NCBI GenBank assembly: GCA_937859595.1
Contig: CALMAH010000036.1
Coordinates: 1 to 64,000 of the forward strand
From: an uncultured Acidobacteriota bacterium
Lineage (GTDB): Bacteria; Acidobacteriota; Blastocatellia; Pyrinomonadales; Pyrinomonadaceae
Direction: 5' to 3'
DNA: 64,000 nt
A model generated the notes under the pieces. It ran no database searches. It was not told where the DNA came from and worked only from the letters and a program-made list of their open reading frames with translations. The translations under genes were made by a program, and so were the position numbers. How positions within the stretch are numbered: position 1 is the stretch's first letter; every line of letters starts with the position of its first letter. This document shows positions 4,453-11,898 of the stretch, piece after piece.

Positions 4453-5058
4453 TCAGTTGTGCCGTTCCCGTAGCTTCTCCACAACCTTAGTGAGCGTAAC
4501 CCCTTTTGCTTCGAGCAGCACCATCAGGTGAAATAACAGGTCCGCCGATTCGTTCACGAAAGCGTCAAGATCATCATCTTTTGCGGCAATAACGGTCTCG
4601 ACTGCCTCCTCGCCGACCTTCTGCGCGATCTTGCTTAGGCCTTTCTCAAAAAGCGAAGAGGTGTATGAAGGGTCCGTTGGCCTCAGCCGTCTATCGGCGA
4701 TCAGGTCGCCGAGTTCTGTCAGGAACGCGAGGGAGTTGTTGTTTGCACTGTTTTTCTCTGCAAAACAAGTATCGTCGCCTGTATGGCACACAGGCCCGCT
4801 CGGCCTGGCAAGCACGAGCAATGTGTCGCGGTCGCAGTCAGTAGCGATTGACTCGAATTCAAGTAGGTTGCCGCTTTCCTCGCCTTTTGTCCAGAGCTTC
4901 TCGCGAGAACGGGAATAAAAGGTGACGTGTCCCGTCTCAAGGGTGAGCCGCAAGGCTTCATCATTCATAAATCCCAACATCAGAACACGTCTCGTGTCAG
5001 CGTCCTGCACGATAGCGGGTACCAAGCGGTCGGGATATTTTTCCCAGATCAGTTTCAT
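4453..5058 (-). CDS. hisI: bifunctional phosphoribosyl-AMP cyclohydrolase / phosphoribosyl-ATP pyrophosphohydrolase
   Basis: 201 residues. The N-terminal HisI half (about 1-110) hydrolyses the adenine ring of PR-AMP and shows its signature stretch from LGFMNDEAL through [17 protein letters not shown], with metal-ligand candidates in TDCDRD and [12 protein letters not shown]. The C-terminal HisE half (about 111-201) removes pyrophosphate from PR-ATP and shows the acidic helix motif [16 protein letters not shown]. The fused order HisI-HisE is that of enteric HisIE. It is the last gene of the his operon, overlapping hisF by 4 bp (ATGA). It converges on the SurA-N-like gene with a 29-bp gap in which I see no clear terminator. 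Confidence 0.96.
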
Positions 5059-5810
5059 CTTCGAACCTCTATTCCGCGCATTGCAAGGAATGATTTGAGT
5101 TCCCGCATACCGATCTCCCCAAAGTGAAATACGCTTGCCGCGAGCGCAGCATCGGCGCGGCCGCGGATGAACACATTCGCAAAATCATCCATTTTTCCGG
5201 CCCCGCCGGAGGCAATTACAGGAATGCCTACACACGCCGAAACGCTTCGGGTCAGCGGTTCATCAAATCCACGTCGAACGCCGTCGCTGTCCATCGAGGT
5301 CAAGAGGATCTCGCCGGCCCCGAGAGCTTCCCCTTGTTTTGCCCAGTCGACGGCGTCGAGATCCGTGGGTTCCCGCCCGCCGTTAAGATATACGTTCCAG
5401 CCAGACCCATTGCGTTTTGCATCGATCGCCAGGACGATAGATTGCGACCCAAAGTTTCGGGCAGCGCGGCCGATCAAGTCGGGATCCCTTACGGCCGCGG
5501 TGTTTATCGAGACCTTGTCGGCCCCCGACTCAAGCAGGGCACCGATCTGTTCCACACCGGAAATGCCTCCGCCAACCGTGAACGGGATATTCACGACCAT
5601 CCCTATCCGACGTACGAGATCGTTAAGTGAGGTGCGATTTTCATGGGTCGCTGTAATGTCCAAAAAGACGAGTTCGTCGGCACCCTCGCTGTTGTAACGT
5701 AAGGCGAGTTCGACCGGGTCGCCCGCGTCGCGGAGCCCGACGAAGTTTGTACCCTTTACCGTCCTTCCGTCTTTTACATCCAGACATGGAATTATTCGTT
5801 TAGCCAGCAT
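5055..5810 (-). CDS. hisF: imidazole glycerol phosphate synthase cyclase subunit HisF
   Basis: 252 residues from the ATG at 5810; the reading frame is open further upstream but that extension runs inside hisA and is not protein-like. A TIM barrel with catalytic D11 in [14 protein letters not shown] and the second aspartate in LAIDAKRNG. It uses ammonia from HisH to convert PRFAR to imidazole glycerol phosphate and AICAR. The start lies 11 bp inside the end of hisA and the stop overlaps hisIE by 4 bp, so translation is likely coupled throughout. Assignment is firm. Confidence 0.97.
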
Positions 5811-6522
5811 ATTTGGAGAGTTCCTCAAGGCCGATGTGCCCCTCGTAGATCGCCTTGCCGACAATGATACCGCTGCACCCGATCTCCTCGAGCCGGTCGA
5901 TATCTTCAAGCGAACTGACGCCCCCACTTGCGACGATCCTGAGCTCGGGTACCGCGGCAATGATCTCTTGATACAGATCGATCCCGGGGCCGGCAAGCGC
6001 TCCGTCTTTTGAAATATCAGTCACGCATGCCTCCTTGACCCCGAGGTCTTTCCACTTTCGCAGAAAATCGATCACATCGATCTCCGTCAGTGTCTTCCAC
6101 CCGTCGATCGCGATCCGACGCTCGCGCACATCAGCCCCGAGGAGGATCTTCTCCGGTCCGAACTCTCGCAGCCATTTCGTGACCGTGTCCGGAGTGCGGA
6201 CGGCAGCACTACCGATGCTTACAAGCCGGGCCCCGGCATCGAAAGCAGCCTTGATGTCATCATCGGTCTTTATACCGCCTCCGAGATCGATCTTAAGGTC
6301 CGTTGCAGACGAGATCAGCTCTACAACGGTCAAATTGGCAGGATGGCCTACCTTTGCACCGTCAAGATCCACAACATGGAGACGCTTAACGCCAACGGCC
6401 TCGAAGCTGACGGCCATTTCAACAGGGCTCTTATCGTAGATCTTGATCGAGCGGAAATCTCCCTCGGTGAGGCGGACACACTTGCCGCCGATGATATCGA
6501 TAGCAGGAATGATCTCGATCAT
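5800..6522 (-). CDS. hisA: ProFAR isomerase HisA
   Basis: 240-residue TIM barrel that isomerises ProFAR to PRFAR. The N-terminal catalytic aspartate is D9 in [15 protein letters not shown], and the second half carries the [13 protein letters not shown] phosphate/catalytic loop and the [11 protein letters not shown] motif. It overlaps hisH by 4 bp upstream and hisF by 11 bp downstream. HisA and HisF are paralogous barrels, told apart by the N-terminal motif. Assignment is firm. Confidence 0.97.
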
Positions 6523-7103
6523 AGGTTCAAAAAGTTCTCCATTATTATTTCTCCGGCTTTGCCCGATCTTTCAGGATGAAACTGGACGCCGAAGAAGTTT
6601 TCCCTTTCAAACGCCGCGGAAAATTCCCGGCCGTAGTTGCAAGTCGCTGTGGTGTATCCGCCCTTTTCGACATAGTAGCCATGCACAAAATAAAAATACT
6701 CACCGGACCGGACTCCGTTGAACAGCGCTGAGTTGCCGATCTGGACCGAATTCCACCCGATGTGCGGAACTTTAAGGGCAGACCTTGGAAACCTTTTTAC
6801 TTGTGCCCCGATGACGTTTAGACAACTAGTGCTGTTCTCCTCAGATGTTGCGCACATTACCTGCATACCCAGACAGATACCGAGCACGGGATTTGTGAGC
6901 GAGCGGATCACTAAGTCGAGTCCTTTCTCTTCAAGATACATCATTGCCGATGACGCTTCGCCAACGCCCGGAAAGATAACCTTGTCCGCGGATGAAAGGA
7001 TCTCCGGATCATCGGTAACGTCAGGCTCAACGCCGAAACGCCTGACACAATTTACGACAGAAGCCGTGTTCCCGGCGTTGTATTTCATTATCGCCAGCTT
7101 CAT
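6519..7103 (-). CDS. hisH: imidazole glycerol phosphate synthase glutaminase subunit HisH
   Basis: 194-residue class I glutamine amidotransferase that supplies ammonia to HisF. The nucleophile is C77 in GICLGMQ and the catalytic His-Glu pair is in FHPERSG near the C-terminus. The N-terminal [12 protein letters not shown] is close to the usual YGxGNxxSV. It overlaps hisB upstream (7100-7103) and hisA downstream by 4 bp each. Assignment is firm. Confidence 0.96.
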
Positions 7104-8203
7104 AAAACGCCTTTCGTCGTAGGGAGTTGGTTGCCCTCGCGTTTGATCGCCATTCGCAGAGATCTGGCGAATGCCTTGAATATTGCCTCGATCTTATGAT
7201 GTTCAATTGTTCCCTGAGCCTTTATGTTCAGATTGCATCGGGCGGCGTCTGCAAAAGATTTGAAGAAATGGAAGAACATTTCCGTCGGCATTTCACCGAT
7301 CTTCTCACGCTTGAATTCCGCGTCCCATTCGGTCCAACTCCTGCCGCCAAGGTCTATCGCAACCTGTGCGAGCGCATCGTCCATCGGCAGCGTGAAGCCG
7401 TAACGTCCAATTCCCGCCTTGTCACCTAAGGCGGACGAGAATGCCTCTCCCAGCGTTATCGCGACGTCCTCGATCGTATGGTGTTCGTCCACGCTTAGGT
7501 CGCCCGTTGCACGGATCGCGAGATCGATGCCGCCGTGTCTTGCGAGCTGCTCGAGCATATGGTCAAAGAATCCGATGCCGGTCGTGATCTCTGCACGGCC
7601 GCTCCCATCAAGGTTGAGCTCAATCTCTATGCATGTTTCCTTGGTTTTTCTGGTGATCGATGCCTTTCGTGGAGGTGTCGTCAGGAGGGAATAGATCTCA
7701 TCCCAGGAATCGACCACAAAAACACCATTTTCCCTGTCGTTAACAAGAGGGAAGTTAGAGTTCCGAATATAGATCGCCTTGCAGCCGAGATTACCGGCAA
7801 GTTCAATGTCGGTCGGACGGTCGCCGACAACATAGGAGTTCTCAAGGTCGTAGTCGCCTTCAATATACTTCGTCAGCATCCCAGTCCCGGGCTTTCTGGT
7901 GACGGCATTCTCATGGGGAAAAGTCTTGTCGACAAATACATCTTCAAAAACAATACCTTCGCCGCGCAATGTTTCGAGGACGAAGGTCTGAGCAGGCCAA
8001 AATGCTGATTCTGGAAAACTGTCCGTTCCCATACCGTCCTGGTTAGTAACCATCACGAACAGAAGATCGGTATCCCGCGCGATCCGGGCGAGATTGGTGA
8101 TAGCCCCGGGCAGAAATCGCAGTTTTTCAAGGACATCTACCTGAAAATCATGCGGCTCGCGGATAATTGTCCCGTCGCGGTCAAGAAAAAGTACTTGTCT
8201 CAT
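7100..8203 (-). CDS. hisB: bifunctional histidinol-phosphatase / imidazoleglycerol-phosphate dehydratase (HisNB fusion)
   Basis: 367 residues with two enzymes fused. Residues 1 to about 165 form a HAD phosphatase with nucleophile D8 and D10 in FLDRDGTI and a downstream [15 protein letters not shown] motif; it dephosphorylates histidinol phosphate. Residues about 175-367 form IGP dehydratase with [11 protein letters not shown] and [11 protein letters not shown] metal-binding motifs. The length and domain order match the enterobacterial bifunctional HisB (about 355 residues). In most bacteria outside gammaproteobacteria and some Bacteroidetes/Campylobacterota these activities sit on separate proteins, so the fusion is informative about descent. 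The stop of hisC and the ATG of hisB share a base (TAATG), and hisH overlaps by 4 bp. Confidence 0.96.
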
Positions 8204-9297
8204 TAGCCTCCGATAATTAGGGGGAATAGTTCGTCAGTCAAGTCTTGTGGCGCAATGCGGGCAAGCGCATTCACAAGCCGGTCATTCTCGTCTGCGGTAC
8301 CTACCGTAATTCGCAGACAGCCACCGCACAGTTCAACGCTGCTGCGGTCACGGACCACGATCTTTTCTTCCAGCAACGACCTATAGACACCTTTAGGGTC
8401 ATTTACCTTCACCAGAAGAAAATTCGCGTCCGACCGGAAAACCTCCTGGACACAACTCAATGCGGCAAGCATCGAACCAAGTCTTTCTCGCTCAGTCAGG
8501 GTCTGGCTGACCCAATGATCCACCTCACTTCGCCGATCGAGGACCTCCAAGATCCTTTGCTGAACCAGCCCGCTAATGTTATATGGCGGTTTAACCCTGT
8601 TCATAAGTGCAATGATCGGGCCGGCGGCCAGGGCCATTCCGACACGCAGTCCAGCCATACCCCAGGCTTTCGAAAAAGTTCGAAGCACGACCAGGTTCGG
8701 CAGTTGACCGAGTTCTTCGGCAAGCGAACCCGACGTAGAGAACTCGATATAGGCCTCATCAACGACAACGATACCCGAAAACTCCCTTGCAATGCGGAGA
8801 ACGCCTTCTCGATCCATCAAGTTGCCGGTCGGGTTATTGGGTGAGCATATAAATATTAGTTTTGTCTTCTCCGACACCGCATCAAGCACGCCGTTTATAT
8901 CCAACTGAAACCCTTCCGTTAGAGGGACGCCGCAAACTCCTATGTCGTTGAGTTCGGCAAGAACGGAGTACATACCGTAGGTCGGCGGGCAGATGATGCA
9001 CTCATCGCGGCCCGGCTCGCAGAACACCCGAAAGATCAGGTCGATAGGTTCGTCGCTCCCGCTGCCGACGAATATCTGGTCTGCGGCGATATTCAACATC
9101 GCCGATAAGCGACTTTTCAATTCCTTCTGCAACGGGTCTGGATATCTGTTAAGGCCCATTCCCGCCGGTGAACCGAAGGCATTCTCGTTCGCATCCAGAT
9201 AAACCTCGGCATCGCCCCCGAACTCGGAACGTGCTGAGGCATAAGGAAGCATACGGGCCACATTTGGCCTGACAAGTTTTTCGAGTTCAAATCTCAT
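8203..9297 (-). CDS. hisC: histidinol-phosphate aminotransferase HisC
   Basis: 364-residue fold-type I PLP enzyme that transaminates imidazole acetol phosphate to histidinol phosphate. The Schiff-base lysine is K210 in [15 protein letters not shown]180 in VVVDEAY contacts the pyridine nitrogen, and CSPNNPTGN provides the conserved substrate/PLP loop. It overlaps hisD by 4 bp and hisB by one base. Assignment is firm because of the operon context; in isolation it could be another aromatic aminotransferase. Confidence 0.96.
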
Positions 9298-10583
9298 TTC
9301 TGTTCGACTCTCGATCTTCTGATCGCCGCAGCATATCGGTGAGCCTCAAGCCCCTCGGCATCGGCCATTGCTTCTATAACTGGAGCGAGCCCCTGCATTC
9401 CTTCCGGGCTGATCTGCTGATAGGTGATCGTCTTTCGAAAGCTCTCGACCGAAACTCCGCTGAAGGCCCGTGCTGCACCGCCGGTCGGCAGAGTGTGGTT
9501 GGTGCCCGAGGCGTAGTCCCCCGCACTCTCGCAGGAGTAGTTGCCGATAAATATGGATCCGGCGTTTGTAAATCGCATTGCGACCTTTGCCGCATCGTCT
9601 ACTACGACGATCAGATGCTCCGGGGCATATTCATCGAGAAGCGCGATCCCGGCTTCAATGCTTTCGATCAAGATCGCCGTCGAATTCTCCATAGCCCGCC
9701 GCGCCGTTTCGCGACGAGGCAGCCTTTCGATCTGCCTGTCTATCTCGGCCAGCGTTCTTTCAATAACTTCCCGAGAATCTGTGACCAAAATGACCTGGCT
9801 GTCCGGGCCGTGTTCAGCCTGGGACAACAGATCGGCCGCCACGAACTCAGGGACACAGGTCTCGTCCGCAATTACCGCAAGCTCTGAAGGGCCGGCAGGC
9901 ATATCGATCGCGATCCCGGCCCGAAATATCTGAAGTTTCGCTTCGGTAACGAACTGGTTTCCGGGCCCGAAGATCTTGTGAACGGCTGGAACGGTCTCTG
10001 TCCCAAATGCCATTGCCCCGATCGCCTGGGCACCACCAATTTTGAAAACACGATCCACACCACAGAGATCGGCCGCGAAGAGCGTTGCAGGGGAAACGCT
10101 GCCGGTCTCGTTCGGCGGGGAACACATTATTACCTCACCGCAGCCTGCGAGTTTCGCAGGTACAGCGAGCATCAGAACCGTTGAGAACAGCGGAGCCGTG
10201 CCGCCCGGGATATACAGGCCAACCTTCTCGATCGGCAGGGTTCGTTTCCAGCAGACTACGTCGGGAGATGTCTCAATGGGATCGGGATCGCACACTTCGA
10301 CAAAGTGAAATTTCTCGATGTTCGATTTCGCCACGCCGATCGCTCGTTTCAGTTCCGTCGGAACAACGCCTCCCGCGTACTCGATCTCCGCTCGAGAGAC
10401 CTCGAAATTCTCGATCTGCACGGGGTCAAATTGTCGCGAACAATGTCTTAGCGCCTCATCGCCGCCGCGACGAACGTCGTCAAGGATGTTTGCGACCGTC
10501 CGTTCAAGAAAGCGCGAATCTGCCTTCGGTCGACTCAGAAGCCCGGCCCAACTATCCCTCTCTGGAAACTCAATTATCTGCAT
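9294..10583 (-). CDS. hisD: histidinol dehydrogenase HisD
   Basis: 429-residue zinc enzyme that performs the last two NAD-dependent oxidations, histidinol to histidine. Family motifs include GGTAPLFSTVLMLAVPAKLAG, KIFGPGNQFVTEAK, IDMPAGPSELAVIAD and the catalytic Glu-His pair in YAPEHLIVV. It follows hisG by 6 bp and overlaps hisC by 4 bp. Assignment is firm. Confidence 0.97.
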   Translation of the reverse strand: MQIIEFPERDSWAGLLSRPKADSRFLERTVANILDDVRRGGDEALRHCSRQFDPVQIENFEVSRAEIEYAGGVVPTELKRAIGVAKSNIEKFHFVEVCDPDPIETSPDVVCWKRTLPIEKVGLYIPGGTAPLFSTVLMLAVPAKLAGCGEVIMCSPPNETGSVSPATLFAADLCGVDRVFKIGGAQAIGAMAFGTETVPAVHKIFGPGNQFVTEAKLQIFRAGIAIDMPAGPSELAVIADETCVPEFVAADLLSQAEHGPDSQVILVTDSREVIERTLAEIDRQIERLPRRETARRAMENSTAILIESIEAGIALLDEYAPEHLIVVVDDAAKVAMRFTNAGSIFIGNYSCESAGDYASGTNHTLPTGGAARAFSGVSVESFRKTITYQQISPEGMQGLAPVIEAMADAEGLEAHRYAAAIRRSRVEQK

Positions 10584-10589
10584 AGCACA

Positions 10590-11444
10590 TCAACTGATCA
10601 TCTGGTCGATCGAAAGGATGAGTATCCCCTCGGCCCCTGCCTGCTTCAATCTGTCCACAACCGACCAGACCTCACGCTCCTCGACTACTGAATGAAGCGA
10701 GACCCAACCGGGTTCGGCCAAAGGCATTACGGTCGGGCTCTTTATGCCGGGTAGAAGTCCTGAAATTTCCTTTAGCTTTTCCTCCGGCGTATTTAGCAGG
10801 ATGTACTTGTTGCCCCCTGCGGCGAGCACACTCTTGATTCGGAACCTAAGATCGTCGAAAAGAGCTGCCGATCCATTGCGGATATCTCGGCGGGCGATCA
10901 GTATTGCTTCGGAGCGCATGACCGTCTCCACCTCCCGGAGCCCATTTGAGAACAACGTGCTTCCGGAACTGACGAGGTCGCAGACCGCGTCGGCAAGGCC
11001 GATCGACGGAGCTATCTCAACCGAACCGCTGATCTCATGGATCTCCGCCGCGACCCTATTTCTATCGAGAAAGGCCCTCAGAACTCGAGGATAGCTGGTT
11101 GCTATCCGCTTACCGCGGAGGCTTTCAACTGAAACATACTCGTCGGGTTTTGGAATGGCGATAGACAGACGGCAATTGCCGAAACCGAGTCGTTCAACTT
11201 GGTCAACCGGCCTTGGATATTCCGCGAGGATGTTCTCACCGACCACACCGATATCCGCGACCCCATCCGCTACGTATTGCGGAATATCGTCGTCCCTGAG
11301 AAAGAACATCTCGAGGGGAAAATCGGCCGCTTCTGCCTTGAGTTTGCCGTGGCCATTGGAAATACCTATCCCGCATTTCCGTAATAGCGCTACTGAGCCC
11401 TCGGCGAGCTTGCCCTGTTTTTGTAATGCGATCCTGAGTTTCAT
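10590..11444 (-). CDS. hisG: ATP phosphoribosyltransferase, long form HisG
   Basis: 284 residues, the length of long-form HisG, which carries its own C-terminal ACT-like histidine-binding domain (about 215-284) and does not need HisZ. The catalytic part shows YVADGVADIGVVGENIL and the PRPP-binding-type stretch APSIGLADAVCDLVSSGSTL. It catalyses the first, feedback-inhibited step of histidine synthesis. It is the first structural gene of the operon. Its ATG directly follows a six-T run (mRNA sense, 11450-11445) and only a weak GGAC lies where a Shine-Dalgarno would be. A histidine-rich leader peptide is encoded 104 nt upstream. Confidence 0.97.
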   Translation of the reverse strand: MKLRIALQKQGKLAEGSVALLRKCGIGISNGHGKLKAEAADFPLEMFFLRDDDIPQYVADGVADIGVVGENILAEYPRPVDQVERLGFGNCRLSIAIPKPDEYVSVESLRGKRIATSYPRVLRAFLDRNRVAAEIHEISGSVEIAPSIGLADAVCDLVSSGSTLFSNGLREVETVMRSEAILIARRDIRNGSAALFDDLRFRIKSVLAAGGNKYILLNTPEEKLKEISGLLPGIKSPTVMPLAEPGWVSLHSVVEEREVWSVVDRLKQAGAEGILILSIDQMIS

Positions 11445-11561
11445 AAAAAATAGTCCGACGCCCTCGAAACGTATTCAAGTTCGCGACGCTGGCATACAAG
11501 CTGGTTTTTCGTCTTAGTTGAGAAACGAGATTCGAGCCACGCGCGGTTTTATCCGGCGTGA
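11445..11561 (-). promoter_or_regulatory. candidate his attenuator region (mutually exclusive hairpins)
   Basis: In the transcript, UCACGCCGG (11561-11553) can pair with CCGCGCGUGG (11546-11537) around loop AUAAAA. This gives about 9 bp with one bulged C and includes the last His codon and the leader stop. A ribosome stalled on His codons would cover this arm and free the next segment, where CUCGAA (11536-11531) is perfectly complementary to UUCGAG (11468-11463), just upstream of hisG. The same UUCG can instead pair with CGAA a little upstream, the layout of an antiterminator/terminator choice. The terminator stem is weak and its U6 run (11450-11445) is separated from it by several bases, so control could instead act on hisG translation. 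Confidence 0.55.
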
Positions 11562-11596
11562 TGGTGATGATGAAGGTTGGGAACCGGGGTGTTCAT
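11549..11596 (-). CDS. hisL: his operon leader peptide (five consecutive His codons)
   Basis: A 15-codon ORF on the his strand, ATG at 11596 and TAA at 11549-11551, encoding MNTPVPNLHHHHHAG. The five histidine codons (11558-11572) are contiguous. It lies 104 nt upstream of hisG with nothing else between, as in enteric his leaders, whose peptide has seven His in a row. Scarcity of charged tRNA-His would stall a ribosome here and alter downstream folding. There is no clear Shine-Dalgarno, so translation may be leaderless or nearly so. A His run in the right strand, frame and place is very unlikely by chance. Confidence 0.85.
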   Translation of the reverse strand: MNTPVPNLHHHHHAG

Positions 11597-11607
11597 CTAT
11601 AAAACTA

Positions 11608-11636
11608 TTAAAAGCACAAAAGTGGAGGGGATGCAA
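11608..11636 (-). promoter_or_regulatory. possible his operon promoter
   Basis: TTGCAT (11636-11631) and TTTTAA (11613-11608) with a 17-bp spacer fit a weak sigma-70-type promoter. Transcription would start only a few bases before the leader ATG. Alternatives with shifted -10 boxes in the same AT-rich stretch cannot be excluded. Confidence 0.3.
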
Positions 11637-11676
11637 GCAAAGCCCGTAAGCCGATGTGATAAAATCTGCAAATAGT

Positions 11677-11898
11677 ATGGCTTCTGAGGTGAAAGACAGT
11701 GTCCTTGTGGAGTTTGGCCGCCGAGTCCAGCGATGTTACGGATGTTTTATTGCGTATCATTTGAAGGATATGTATCTCGGCGAGGACGTGACGTTTTTTT
11801 GCCAACATTGCAAAACCGAGGAGATGTTCCATTTTGATGACTTCTCGCGACTGATCGACATCTCGAAGCTAAAGGAAGTGACCGAGGCCGGCCCTTAG
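11677..11898 (+). CDS. small protein with two Cys-X2-Cys pairs
   Basis: 73 residues from the ATG at 11677; a GTG at 11656 would add seven residues. The sequence has CYGC and CQHC about 27 residues apart, a spacing compatible with a treble-clef or zinc-ribbon fold, and the ends are hydrophilic. It is divergent from the his leader and 23 bp upstream of the FHA protein on the same strand. I do not recognise the family. Function could be regulatory or metal-dependent; nothing in the neighbourhood decides it. No good ribosome binding site is visible. Confidence 0.5.
   Translation: MASEVKDSVLVEFGRRVQRCYGCFIAYHLKDMYLGEDVTFFCQHCKTEEMFHFDDFSRLIDISKLKEVTEAGP

Follow-up and report, generated by a model that had tools for sequence, protein, structure and literature searches.

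The 64,000 nt stretch of Pyrinomonadaceae DNA analysed here (the window) raises the question of whether an acidobacterial his operon is controlled by a ribosome reading a histidine-rich leader peptide, and if so, through which RNA helices and at which level, transcription or translation. The starting point was a claimed His-rich ORF of 15 codons ending 104 nt before hisG, and this ORF was indeed found in front of the first his gene, its stop codon ending 104 nt 5' of the hisG ATG (11444). The observation of a His-rich leader ORF upstream of hisG is thus confirmed. The run occupies codons 9-13; five successive CAY codons occur a single time in the 64 kb, and none of 100 dinucleotide-preserving shuffles contains such a run. 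The leader and the genes that follow it are arranged as listed, the names hisD, hisC, hisH, hisA and hisF being those we presume from the translations by family knowledge.

11549..11596 (-), leader peptide ORF MNTPVPNLHHHHHAG followed by a stop codon; His codons at 11572-11558
10590..11444 (-), hisG, long form (Pfam HisG and HisG_C), at the head of the controlled operon
4453..10583 (-), hisD, hisC, bifunctional hisB (HAD and IGPD), hisH, hisA, hisF and hisIE (ORFs; Pfam for hisB and hisIE)

We explored the conservation of the leader in 119 genomes of the family, 34 of which hold the long HisG of the window type. Counting the window, 33 long-hisG loci of the family have a readable upstream region; every one of them carries a His-rich leader ORF, which ends 75-136 nt before the aligned hisG start. 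Typical leader peptides are MQLSSLNIHLHHHHHVHHTRVL and MKFFAGNQIHHHHHAEHRVN; the flanking residues vary, but the His run persists. No His-rich leader ORF was seen at two more distant acidobacterial long HisGs (L028 and L029, 48-49% identity). Poly-His peptides bind metals, and the ORF might accordingly be read as a small metal-binding or otherwise functional protein unrelated to the control of hisG; this is hardly credible, however, as conservation is limited to the His run and the RNA arms while length and other residues vary, and as the ORF, apart from a single case at hisS, is confined to positions before hisG. The same contrast between a kept run and varying flanks speaks against a T-box or another RNA element that senses tRNA directly, in which the His run would be incidental. 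Although his operons of other phyla are under T-box control (PMC9413887), the T-box covariance model did not match the window, neither the window nor 16 related loci reached the gathering score of any Rfam family, and nothing relevant appeared at relaxed score in 11400-11760, so that such an element can be given next to no weight.

The RNA between the His run and hisG contains three arms that can pair in alternative ways before the terminator is completed.

11553..11561 (-), arm 1, containing the last His codon
11536..11546 (-), arm 2 (CCGCGCGUGGC), partner of arm 1 (protector) or of arm 3 (antiterminator)
11482..11493 (-), arm 3 (GCCAGCGUCGCG), forming a 10-bp antiterminator with arm 2 and overlapping the 5' arm of the terminator

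The 9-bp hairpin UCACGCCGG/CCG.GCGUGG (11561-11553 with 11546-11537) is part of the MFE fold of the window. The initial annotation had placed both the last His codon and the stop codon in an arm of this hairpin; the His codon does lie in the 5' arm, but the stop codon falls in the loop. Such an early stop codon in the loop of hairpin 1:2 is common to the window and L012, and in most other loci of the family the stop codon is inside arm 2. Arm 1 (CACGCG) begins within the final codon of the His run and is complementary to CGCGUG of arm 2. The 2:3 helix joins arm 2 and the following AACUAAU with AUUAGUU ... ACGCG of arm 3; in the 3:4 helix, GCGAACUUGAAA of arm 3 is matched by UUUCAAG... of arm 4, beyond which the RNA continues with U. 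The window carries a 10-bp variant of 2:3, CGCGCGUGGC with GCCAGCGUCGCG, its own pairing amounting to -16.0 kcal/mol.

Because the helices are mutually exclusive and their spacing varies, RNAalifold on the whole alignment recovered only the CGCG part of 2:3, and we therefore used an alignment-free swap test, in which the arms of each genome are compared with arms exchanged among 28 sequences and p is obtained by permutation. Arms from the same genome pair better for 1:2 (p<5e-5), 2:3 (p<5e-5) and 3:4 (p=5e-4), and no better for the three control combinations 1:3, 1:4 and 2:4 in these 28 sequences. By alignment columns, 83% of the cells of 2:3 are paired vs 25-39% when the arms are slid, and C-G/U-A and other double changes are included; the paired cells exceed column shuffles (3/500), while the number of double-change pairs is not beyond them (136/500). 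The conservation of 1:2 on its own is too high to show much covariation by columns. The folding energy of the whole leader is unremarkable (z -0.79), a single-sequence fold being uninformative here. The protector, the antiterminator and the terminator are thus mutually exclusive helices kept by matching changes. The retained His run and the covarying helices in the hisG upstream regions of the relatives support the His-leader attenuation logic that had been suggested for this acidobacterium.

A different antiterminator had been proposed from the window, in which CUCGAA (11536-11531), next to the first hairpin, pairs with UUCGAG (11468-11463) in the 3' arm of the terminator. The two segments are complementary, and in the window 2:4 can form a strong helix (-16.7 kcal/mol between the two regions); however, exchanged arms pair as well as the genome's own (28 sequences, p=0.28) and the 2:4 probability in the window fold is near 0 at every ribosome position. 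This pairing is specific to the window sequence, and 2:4 was rejected as the antiterminator on the swap test, its being so after all having become very improbable. In the conserved antiterminator, as judged by comparison of the sequences, the partner of arm 2 (CGCG...) is the 5' terminator arm (2:3) and not the 3' arm.

The consequences of the 2:3 antiterminator were analysed with a simplified ribosome footprint, computing P(2:3) before arm 4 emerges. In this model the mean P(2:3) is 0.22 with free RNA, 0.66 with the ribosome stalled on His and 0.00 with the ribosome at the stop codon, the last value being nearly automatic since arm 2 is then covered; the corresponding values for the window are 0.12, 0.82 and 0.04. 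In every one of the 28 cases, the modelled 2:3 is favoured more by a ribosome stalled on His than by one at the stop codon. The modelled outcome is the one expected from the logic of transcription attenuation. We infer the following order of events and response to histidine. RNA polymerase would start just 5' of the leader ATG and a ribosome would follow through the leader ORF. With scarce His-tRNA the ribosome would stall on the His run and cover arm 1, leaving arm 2 to pair with arm 3, with the result that the terminator would be blocked and the his operon transcribed. With plentiful His-tRNA the ribosome would reach the stop codon and cover the start of arm 2, whereupon arm 3 would be free, the 3:4 terminator would form and transcription would end at the U-tract before hisG. 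When no ribosome is present, 1:2 would form and the terminator would win again.

The start of the transcript assumed in this mechanism is suggested by promoter-like elements next to the leader ORF.

11607..11636 (-), promoter-like elements, -35 TTGCAT at 11636-11631 and -10 TTTAAT at about 11612-11607

A strict sigma-70 scan gave no match for these elements in the window. In most of the 33 loci a motif consisting of CTTGCAA, about 18 nt and TGTGTT.TAAATAT is conserved directly 5' of the leader ATG; the transcript therefore probably starts a few bases before this codon, within about 10 nt. A Shine-Dalgarno sequence is absent from most leaders. The intergenic region with the leader promoter is shared with a divergent ORF of 80 aa with CxxC pairs (window 11656-11898, plus strand), which has no Pfam match.

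Whether the switch acts on transcription or on translation depends on the hairpin that precedes hisG.

11453..11487 (-), terminator hairpin 3:4
11445..11452 (-), U-tract UAUUUUUU, immediately 5' of the hisG ATG

The final stem had been described as weak, and the downstream switch as possibly translational. The window terminator GUCGCGAACUUGAAUACGUUUCGAGGGCGUCGGAC is less weak than thought (-11.7 kcal/mol) and is followed directly by the U-tract and the hisG AUG. An intrinsic terminator is thus found between the leader ORF and the first gene, imperfect in the window itself, where it is missed by a consensus terminator scan because of internal loops. In the equilibrium fold of the window, part of 2:3 is compatible with the inner hairpin of this terminator. 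A terminator-like hairpin with a U-rich tail is present in nearly all loci of the family, and several relatives (e.g. L018, L019, L034 and L035) have near-perfect intrinsic terminators. A His-stalling switch that exposes or masks the hisG start by means of a hairpin, without an end of transcription, would fit the imperfect window stem adjoining the hisG ATG and the one relative, L025, that lacks a clear terminator, but we regard it as unlikely, given the stems with U-rich tails and near-perfect terminators elsewhere and the lack of a consistent ribosome-binding site within the hairpin. In nearly all relatives the stem is followed by a U-tract, which argues for transcriptional rather than translational control. 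In L025 (G060) the leader ORF is retained and the hairpin near the hisG start includes GGAG; this locus may perhaps be a translational version.

The His run, the three helices and the U-tracts are therefore conserved, and they are linked to the his operon. On this comparative evidence the element upstream of the his operon is very probably a ribosome-mediated transcription attenuator. A covariance model of it, R1, matches in 38 of the 119 family genomes. All strong family matches but two are located at hisG; the two exceptions lie at a contig end and at hisS, respectively. Genomes of the same genus that lack the operon gave no R1 match, G017 excepted, in which the match lies at the contig end and HisD is a fragment. 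Among 297 genomes drawn from the phylum only those of the same genus match well; weak hits in the remainder of the phylum, with E values of 0.004-0.04, are probably due to chance, and G084:C160, G063:C375, G168:C5, G085:C263 and G045:C29 were discarded as such. One genome without a long hisG shows the His leader MLNILKTKSVHHHRLNIHAD and a terminator before hisS (L068, G066:C6:49375-49498), a candidate for the same switch acting on histidyl-tRNA synthetase. A general His leader before hisS was rejected, as it was found at 1 of 30 hisS loci, namely this one. In the window's genus, HisD was without a match in 21 of 41 genomes (17 of the 28 good ones), and these lack the long HisG as well, pointing to a probable loss of the his operon, and histidine auxotrophy, in about half of the genus.

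Vitreschak et al. in 2004 are said to mention attenuators in Bacteroidetes/Chlorobi. The closest formal likeness of the present element is to enteric hisL (RF00514), with a His-run leader ORF before hisG, alternating helices and a terminator before hisG, and the E. coli hisL-hisG arrangement was seen in this comparison. The acidobacterial leader differs in peptide, arms, phylum and HisG lineage, and the His_leader model RF00514 failed to match, both at gathering score and, in 11400-11760, at relaxed score. Described his attenuators come from Proteobacteria and from three groups of Firmicutes (PMC9413887). Those of the Firmicutes (Bacillus cereus group, Peptostreptococcaceae and Erysipelotrichales) likewise combine 3-5 His codons, a terminator and an antiterminator without matching RF00514, although they belong to an unrelated phylum and the likeness is one of described features. 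In Flavobacterium, leader peptides have been proposed to attenuate amino-acid operons, and the elements listed for F. psychrophilum include a structured one 5' of hisG that matches no Rfam family (PMC9723704). A survey from 2010 had almost no predicted attenuators with assigned function in Acidobacteria (PMC2965389), and the open-access literature yielded nothing relevant on his attenuation in Acidobacteria or Pyrinomonadaceae. It is thus well supported that this is a his attenuator of the classic type, absent from Rfam and, as far as searched, new for Pyrinomonadaceae and Acidobacteriota. Acidobacteriota are abundant in soil, and one of their families can now be given a specific predicted amino-acid switch.

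The operon itself seems to have a different history from its host. It had been called non-proteobacterial-looking, which fits a Bacteroidota-type origin: the nearest HisGs outside the family are from Bacteroidota, mostly Chitinophagaceae (58-63% identity), the gene order hisG-D-C-B(-H) is common to both, and Bacteroidota hisB aligns along most of the two-domain HisB of the window. In a quick HisG tree the family forms a single clade (SH-aLRT 100) among Bacteroidota; L143 lies outside (support 85). The operon was likely acquired from a Bacteroidota-like donor. Nearly all of the nearest Bacteroidota relatives have a His-run leader, and the leaders of F. psychrophilum (PMC9723704) and Chitinophagaceae share with ours the gene order, a short His-run ORF and a terminator before hisG. 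Their RNA core, however, is GGTARGC / GCTTACC...GGTAAGC, which a simple pattern found in 39-43 of 75 Bacteroidota loci vs 0 of 37 acidobacterial loci, and in Bacteroidota R1 gave no more than weak matches. It may be proposed, as a tentative reading that we hold to be rather doubtful, that the attenuator did not come with the transferred operon but re-evolved on it in Pyrinomonadaceae; its RNA core would be unrelated, and its leader ORF, mostly devoid of a Shine-Dalgarno sequence, would start no more than about 10 nt from the 5' end of the transcript. In that case classic attenuation would be running on a nearly leaderless message. The locus lends itself to the question of whether regulatory RNAs move together with a transferred operon or are built anew in the recipient.

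A second pathway of similar look was noted in the Pyrinomonadaceae family. Short ORFs rich in Phe, Tyr and Trp, e.g. MQNFSNNFYFYFSYFFTKSAGIKLCLK and MKTLSFTFGFFWFYFGKTAEGEALCIKD, lie upstream of a gene that we take from its translation to encode chorismate mutase (L073, L159-L165, L167, L178 and L186), and in several of these loci a GC-rich terminator follows; the downstream frames of L073 are presumably prephenate dehydratase- and DAHP synthase-like, as named from translation. Phe/Tyr-rich leaders are also present in family genomes without the His leader, and an aromatic attenuator in the family is likely.
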